55,105 bases of DNA from a virus. The translations under genes were made by a program, and so were the position numbers. The stretch covers positions 1-55,105 of IMG/VR virus record IMGVR_UViG_3300036770_004953, one strand, 5' to 3'. Below the pieces are notes generated by a model, which searched no databases, was not told the origin of the DNA, and saw only the letters and a program-made list of their open reading frames with translations. This document shows, one piece after another, positions 54,509 through 54,620 of this stretch. Each line of letters starts with the position of its first letter. The first letter of the stretch is position 1.

Positions 54509-54620
54509 GGAGATGTAGCTCAGCTGGTAGAGCAACGTAATGTAAATCTTGTCAAAGATTTCTCTGCAATCCTAATGCATGTCAAGCCGTTGGTCCTAGG
54601 TTCAAGTCCTAGCATCTCCG
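54509..54620 (+). tRNA. tRNA-Asp(GTC)-like RNA with 39-nt insertion in the anticodon stem
   Basis: Complete tRNA parts: acceptor stem GGAGATG/CATCTCC, D-arm GCTC-AGCTGGTA-GAGC, T-arm CTAGG-TTCAAGT-CCTAG, discriminator G. Between D and T arms the sequence is 39 nt too long. If 54537 up to TAAT before GCATGTCAA is left out, ACG joins GC, giving a perfect 5-bp stem ACGGC/GCCGT with loop ATGTCAA (anticodon GTC) and a standard 73-nt tRNA. The insert holds a hairpin AAATCT-TGTCAA-AGATTT with the same TGTCAA loop and the CTGCAAT box of the neighbouring stem-loops. It may be a tRNA with a tiny intron, a degenerated tRNA, or a Y-RNA-like tRNA mimic. Confidence 0.7.

Follow-up and report, generated by a model that had tools for sequence, protein, structure and literature searches.

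What kind of RNA is encoded where a phage tRNA, beginning about 120 bp 3' of the stop codon of a Ro60-like protein gene, is split within its anticodon stem by 39 extra nucleotides? This arrangement occurs near one end of the window, that is, the whole stretch of 55,105 nucleotides of viral DNA analysed here (IMG/VR record IMGVR_UViG_3300036770_004953). The first-pass annotation, made from the sequence alone, had put forward three explanations for the extra nucleotides, namely, a tiny tRNA intron, an anticodon decoy against tRNA-cutting nucleases, or a tRNA mimic of the YrlA kind that the Ro-like protein binds. The mimic emerges as the best supported of the three, because of a module shared with neighbouring RNAs, the gene linkage, the Ro60 fold of the protein and the existence of YrlA-type permuted relatives, the decoy being a possible function of such an RNA, and the intron being weakened but still conceivable.

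Structure of the interrupted tRNA

The interrupted tRNA, probably a tRNA-bodied Y RNA, is located at 54509..54620 on the plus strand. The Rfam tRNA model RF00005 spans it over its full length (model positions 1-71), with 50.7 bits versus a gathering score of 29, and ARAGORN run on the window reported no tRNA. Direct reading gives an acceptor stem (54509-54515/54613-54619), a D-stem (54518-54521/54530-54533) and a T-stem (54596-54600/54608-54612), and the complete tRNA fold with all arms, as described beforehand, is thus confirmed from end to end. The 5' strand of the anticodon stem starts with ACG (54535-54537), is then split by the 39-nt insert (54538..54576, plus strand) at the boundary of tRNA positions 29 and 30, and resumes with GC (54577-54578); it is followed by the loop ATGTCAA (54579..54585, plus strand) and by the 3' strand GCCGT (54586-54590). 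When the insert is omitted, the stem becomes ACGGC/GCCGT and the anticodon GTC is displayed by a tRNA of 112 - 39 = 73 nt, so that this earlier claim was likewise borne out by direct reading.

Within the insert, computation places a hairpin, AAATCTT-GTCA-AAGATTT, whose loop starts with G (54544..54561), followed by a CTGCAAT box (54564..54570), both on the plus strand. Folding of the complete 112 nt yields the acceptor, D- and T-arms together with the insert hairpin (z = -2.8). The covariance model R1 assigns 97.4 bits to the window RNA and at most 49.6 bits to intact tRNAs in the same search; this model was built partly from the window sequence itself, and its dot-bracket line puts the insert hairpin in the wrong columns, its scores therefore coming from the tRNA arms and the sequence. 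Group I introns harbour a conserved catalytic core and measure about 200 nt or more; the insert, with its 39 nt and in the absence of any Rfam intron match in the window, had rightly been considered too short to be one. The proposal that the insert hairpin is a copy of the anticodon loop is ruled out: the 6-mer at the hairpin apex is repeated 3' of the box in just one of the 56 clusters of such sequences described below, that of the window, and the resemblance is therefore a coincidence.

The Ro60-like protein and its gene neighbourhood

The 489-residue protein encoded 5' of the interrupted tRNA (52918..54387, plus strand) was recognised as Ro60-like by its Pfam domains DUF2828 and DUF7788, its assignment to PHROG 850 ('RNA-binding protein') and a fold match. 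Its structure was predicted with a pLDDT of 90.5, based on 39 aligned sequences. The top structural match of the predicted model is Xenopus Ro60 (1YVR), with a Z score of 21.0 and 3.6 Å over 410 of 489 residues, and lower matches are the Ro60 of Thermus phage phiLo (9L5Y, Z 13.8) and Deinococcus Rsr (2NVO, Z 12.5). The predicted fold of the window protein is that of Ro60, with a HEAT ring and a vWA domain. The metal-site motif DxSxS of the latter, which we take to be the MIDAS, is present, with D294, S296 and S298 invariant in the 39 sequences. The Pfam TROVE domain is absent from the protein, PF11443 and PF25043 being assigned instead, and Ro60 was missed by a profile search against PDB sequences. 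The family is present in 681 phage records.

Upstream of the Ro-like gene, genes for an RNA ligase (48077-49423; Pfam and PHROG annotation), a NUDIX/nucleotidyltransferase protein and a nicotinate/nicotinamide phosphoribosyltransferase stand in a row at 48077-51969, forming a cluster for RNA repair and NAD salvage. Authors working on jumbo phages discuss such gene types, as systems of RNA repair and of NAD metabolism, alongside a TROVE protein (PMC7824862). A small ORF located 3' of the RNA cluster (54696-54953) belongs to PHROG 8074, whose function is unassigned.

Interrupted tRNAs in other phages

The layout of the window is found again in Synechococcus phage B23, where, after the gene of a Ro-like protein (65% identity), a 110-nt RNA annotated as 'tRNA-Undet' carries the insert at the identical place and has the anticodon TCG. 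Altogether, 75 distinct interrupted tRNAs, forming 56 clusters (<93% similarity), were gathered from loci of IMG/VR scans and from fetched cultured phages, using a finder aware of the hairpin and the box, which misses some true cases (e.g., L004). Since it recurs in B23 and in 75 distinct sequences, the window arrangement is more than chance. Nearly all of these RNAs adjoin phage Ro-like genes, and on the contigs found by the insert pattern alone, a Ro-like gene is present in 20 out of 21, the exception being a 15-kb fragment. Covariation is seen at nearly every pair of the acceptor and T-stems (21 sequences), and phages of six host genera share the insert module. The first scan with the insert pattern had returned 19 stretches, with a tRNA context in L027 only. 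A scan of a genome collection gave three matches, the third of which adjoins a Ro-like gene; the two others, from Prochlorococcus, lie within coding sequence, look like chance and were rejected.

Among 15 named phage records searched with R1, long interrupted tRNAs were detected in B23, Cronobacter phage S13, Aeromonas phage Aeh1, Vibrio phage nt-1 and an Erwinia phage, Sinorhizobium phage phiM7 gave an intermediate match, and nine records were without an interrupted tRNA at this level. In a negative control on 97 pattern-hit loci, R1 exceeded 50 bits only in four true loci (L031, L058, L081 and L092), and two further matches (44.3 and 36.8 bits) measure 73-77 nt, the length of an intact tRNA. 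Cases annotated as pseudo-tRNAs were also recovered: KVP40 carries three interrupted tRNAs, named tRNA-Pseudo-3, -4 and -5, Citrobacter phage Ci1 carries two, and both phages list some of theirs as pseudo-tRNAs. A hairpin over a loop starting with G and then an [N]GCA box are seen in 10 out of 11 cultured-phage sequences, a count that leaves out the 82-nt KVP40 Pseudo-2 and the sequences of B23 and S13, and KVP40 Pseudo-4 is off by one mismatch. Other architectures were noticed as well. In tRNA-like RNAs of 84-86 nt (L120:6718-6801 and L121:6873-6958), a hairpin with a CAGCA/CTGCA box replaces the anticodon arm, and in a Bacillus phage (L260:940-1063) a Ro-type helix and box surround an apparently whole tRNA.

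A module shared by the insert and the flanking stem-loops

Several Y-like stem-loops, all on the plus strand, accompany the Ro-like gene of the window. Two of them precede the interrupted tRNA, at 54398..54446 (TAGGTGTT/GACACCTA + G, box TCTGCAATT) and 54451..54503 (AAGATGAG/CTCATCTT + G, box TCTGCAATT), and a third follows it at 54622..54672 (TAGATGGT/ACCATCTA + G, box TCAGCAATT). Another is located 5' of the Ro-like gene at 52808..52868 (AAGATGAG/CTCATCTT + G, box ACAGCAACC), together with a probable second upstream stem-loop identified by direct reading at 52875..52910 (AAGTTGA/TCAACTT + G, box CCGCAAA), which is missed by our strict stem-loop descriptor. No convincing promoter was found near the window stem-loops. 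Across relatives, a TTGACA-15..19-TAnnnT promoter stands 2-16 nt upstream of 14 out of 130 stem-loops versus 21 out of 2600 random positions; one lies 12 nt upstream of the first interrupted tRNA of S13, where about one is expected by chance.

With regard to the order of their parts, the stem-loops consist of strand a (WAGAUGRU), the box (UCAGCAAU), an inner hairpin, strand b (RYCAUCUW) and G, and the inserts of strand b (AUCUW), the G-loop, strand a (WAGAU), a linker and the box, the conserved insert module being a hairpin (..AUCU-W-G..) and then CAGCAAU. Strands a and b lie at opposite ends of the RNA in the stem-loops; in the inserts, a short loop with G as its first base connects them. At the level of primary sequence, this comparison shows that the insert module and the flanking stem-loops are circular permutations of one element. 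Positions -5 to 0 of strand b read A T C T W G in stem-loops and inserts alike. The A at -5 is found in 71 out of 72 stem-loop clusters and 54 out of 56 inserts, and the inserts have C at -3 in 54 and T at -2 in 53 out of 56, all three positions being unused for selection. As the finder requires both the hairpin and the box, it is the conservation of these unselected bases that counts as a result, and not the presence of hairpin and box. The CTGCAAT box that had been noticed in both the insert and the neighbouring stem-loops is real and conserved.

The strict stem-loop descriptor gave 87 matches on the strand of the Ro gene and none on the opposite strand, with 0.67 expected in shuffles (33 loci, 338,521 bases); since it was defined on the same set in which it was counted, and this set includes some near-identical loci, the difference between the strands is the better guide. 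A looser descriptor returned 92 unique plus-strand versus three minus-strand matches, and a loose hairpin descriptor is weak alone (162 plus, 115 minus and 64 in shuffles). Box stem-loops also occur among intact tRNAs of large phages (L223, L235 and L253), with no Ro-like gene near on the same locus. In gamma-class inserts (e.g., L121:6583 and L194:3979), UCGGU..CGGA or UCAGU..CAGA is present outside the hairpin, a variation that suggests a conserved purine-purine internal loop.

Permuted relatives

At distant Ro-like loci (39-50% identity), a stem-loop of the same type lies at ≤1.5 kb on the strand of the gene in 22 out of 40 cases, versus three on the opposite strand. Some of these stem-loops are larger and hold permuted tRNA-like domains in a YrlA-like order (T-arm, closed acceptor and D-arm), with the same helix and box as the inserts; the alignment of the Rfam YrlA model itself runs T-arm, closed stem, D-arm. 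For example, the permuted tRNA at L006:4744-4882 is composed of the Ro helix, TACAGCAATT, the T-arm, the acceptor 3' strand, a linker, the acceptor 5' strand, the D-arm and the Ro helix. The YrlA model RF02553 gives 50.3 (L166), 38.2 (L006:4744-4882) and 31.3 bits to Y RNAs of relatives, its gathering score being 69. At the gathering score, it matched neither the window, where only the tRNA was found, nor the stem-loops of four relatives. The cultured phage S13 carries two interrupted tRNAs and one permuted form side by side and, as the permuted form is present in S13 and at the distant loci, phages appear to encode one particle in either of two circular orders. Another permuted tRNA-like RNA, at L006:4370-4510, encodes a CCA, and its 7-nt loop, ATCCAAA, is identical to that of the unpermuted L197:6431. 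In S13 (L261:5289 onwards), a sequence judged by eye to be tmRNA-like is located 3' of the permuted Y RNA.

Retention, splicing, display or decay of the insert

We consider it likely, from these comparisons, that the insert serves as a Ro-docking module of the Y RNA type, which a phage tRNA has received within its anticodon arm and which the working RNA retains. Alternatively, it could be a very short tRNA intron, which would be cut out, the halves being joined into working tRNAs by the phage RNA ligase, with the Ro-like protein perhaps guiding the reaction. Such a ligase is encoded in the window, and removal of the insert produces a canonical arm (5 bp, 7-nt loop and U33) in 22 out of 56 clusters, versus 0.6, and a maximum of 3, with shuffled linkers. 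Furthermore, fully canonical loops were read by eye in cultured phages, namely, CTGTTAA in nt-1 and Aeh1 and CTTTTAA in the Erwinia phage. However, the canonical arm is not restored in the other 34 clusters, the position of the insert varies, with 0 to 5 stem bases on its upstream side, and the module is also found by itself in stem-loops, as well as in permuted RNAs, which lack exons that could be joined in order. Introns of archaeal and eukaryotic tRNAs form a bulge-helix-bulge that a splicing endonuclease cuts; the analysis yielded no such enzyme. ARAGORN called tRNAs in 56 out of 56 cases when the exons were joined by script and in none at full length; joins displaced by 2-4 nt were still called in 39-55 out of 56, so that the exact insert boundaries are not proven by this program.

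The anticodons also speak against splicing, since near-identical bodies may carry different ones, such as UAA in L092 versus UGG in L004. Among near-identical interrupted pairs, the anticodon differs in 14 out of 36 at 90% similarity, three of these differences looking like register shifts of class-delta loops, and in 4 out of 18 at 93%. The corresponding values for intact tRNA pairs are 6 out of 97 and 1 out of 57, and they concern the wobble base only, never position 35 or 36. The interrupted RNAs as a family, rather than the window copy in particular, thus do not keep the anticodon conserved with the body, as decoding tRNAs would. In addition, 13 of the 25 canonical locus cases also carry an intact tRNA of the same anticodon. 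As a retained display arm explains the 22 canonical clusters as well as splicing does, we favour an insert that would be kept in the window RNA, and regard the intron as unlikely.

The display of this arm might itself be the main role. As an anticodon decoy, the RNA would be rendered non-decoding by the insert and would present its loop to tRNA-cutting nucleases, Ro binding being secondary. This would fit the variation of the anticodon triplet on a constant body and the frequency of canonical arms, which is far above chance, and a role of YrlA as a competitive inhibitor of an anticodon nuclease was proposed by Hughes et al. in 2020 (PMC7790460). Nonetheless, several classes lack a 7-nt loop or U33, the analysis yielded no target nuclease, and a decoy role alone leaves the shared Ro module unexplained; we hold it for distinctly improbable as the principal function. 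Finally, decayed tRNA genes, a dead-pseudogene reading that the first-pass annotation had kept in reserve and that agrees with the rejection or 'pseudo' label given by standard gene finders and with some annotations in KVP40 and Aeh1 (Aeh1 Table 4, phi-pp2 text), are hardly credible in view of the covariation of acceptor and T-stems in most pairs, the recurrence of the arrangement with the same insert module in phages of six host genera, and the linkage to the Ro-like gene.

A proposed tRNA-bodied Y RNA

If the insert is a retained Ro-docking module, the neighbouring Ro-like protein would bind the helix and the box, the tRNA body would be trimmed at its acceptor end in the fashion of a tRNA, and the particle would show a tRNA shape beside the Ro ring, as YrlA does, with the ends exchanged. 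Insert retention, Ro binding and function are what we infer for the window RNA. The least certain step concerns the tRNA body. It may connect the Ro ring with nucleases or tRNA-handling enzymes of the host, in the way that YrlA links Rsr to PNPase, or else it may act as bait for anticodon nucleases of the host, a role that would account for the changes of anticodon. A wider scheme, which we view as possible but doubtful, would combine two circular permutations of one particle, the first ending in the Ro helix, sometimes with an internal CCA, and the second in the acceptor, with arrays of the second form bearing changing anticodons, the Ro-like ring and the RNA repair enzymes into an anticodon-nuclease bait or sensor, of which the KVP40-like 'pseudo-tRNAs' would be members.

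Should the proposal of a tRNA-bodied Y RNA be true, phage RNAs that are now filed as pseudo-tRNAs or missed would gain a function, a probable docking signal (WAGAU.. followed by CAGCAA, and ..AUCUWG) would be defined for the Ro-like family, and the Y RNA/tRNA chimera would exist in both circular orders. Because the cultured phages nt-1, KVP40, Aeh1 and S13 carry interrupted tRNAs, a possible handling of tRNA-like RNAs by Ro RNPs in infection would be directly testable.

Comparison with known systems

YrlA, Rsr and the tethering of Rsr to PNPase by YrlA have been published (PMC8394870, PMC7790460). In Listeria phage CKA15, three highly transcribed non-coding regions located <2 kb upstream of an Rsr-like gene were suggested to be Y RNAs, and purified particles contained the Rsr-like protein (PMC12282133). 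The related phage P100 possesses three CAGCAA-box stem-loops in a position matching these regions, and we infer that they may be the same RNAs; unlike the window RNA, the CKA15 candidates are simple stem-loops without a tRNA body. Chen et al. are reported to have described, in 2014, bacterial and phage Y RNAs in the vicinity of Ro60. Our literature search returned no account of acceptor-ended interrupted phage tRNAs as Y RNAs, an earlier description in Chen 2014 or Sim 2020 being possible.

When compared with Ro60 and Rsr, which are TROVE-vWA ring proteins, the window protein is alike in its whole-length fold match, but the identity over the structural alignments is just about 10-17%. As for the pseudo-tRNAs of KVP40, Aeh1 and phi-pp2, KVP40 tRNA-Pseudo-3, -4 and -5 belong to one kind with the window RNA, whereas the forms from these three phages had previously been annotated as pseudogenes or as low-scoring, without explanation. 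The window RNA resembles YrlA (RF02553) in its location beside a Ro60-like gene and in the union of a Ro helix with a tRNA-like domain that comprises D- and T-arms. In contrast to YrlA, of which it is a circular permutation, it follows the ordinary tRNA order and ends in the acceptor stem, and its Ro helix is not formed by the 5' and 3' ends but capped by a loop that lies within the anticodon arm; terminal helices are found in the stem-loops that flank the Ro-like gene, and the permuted form running from T-arm to D-arm in distant relatives.
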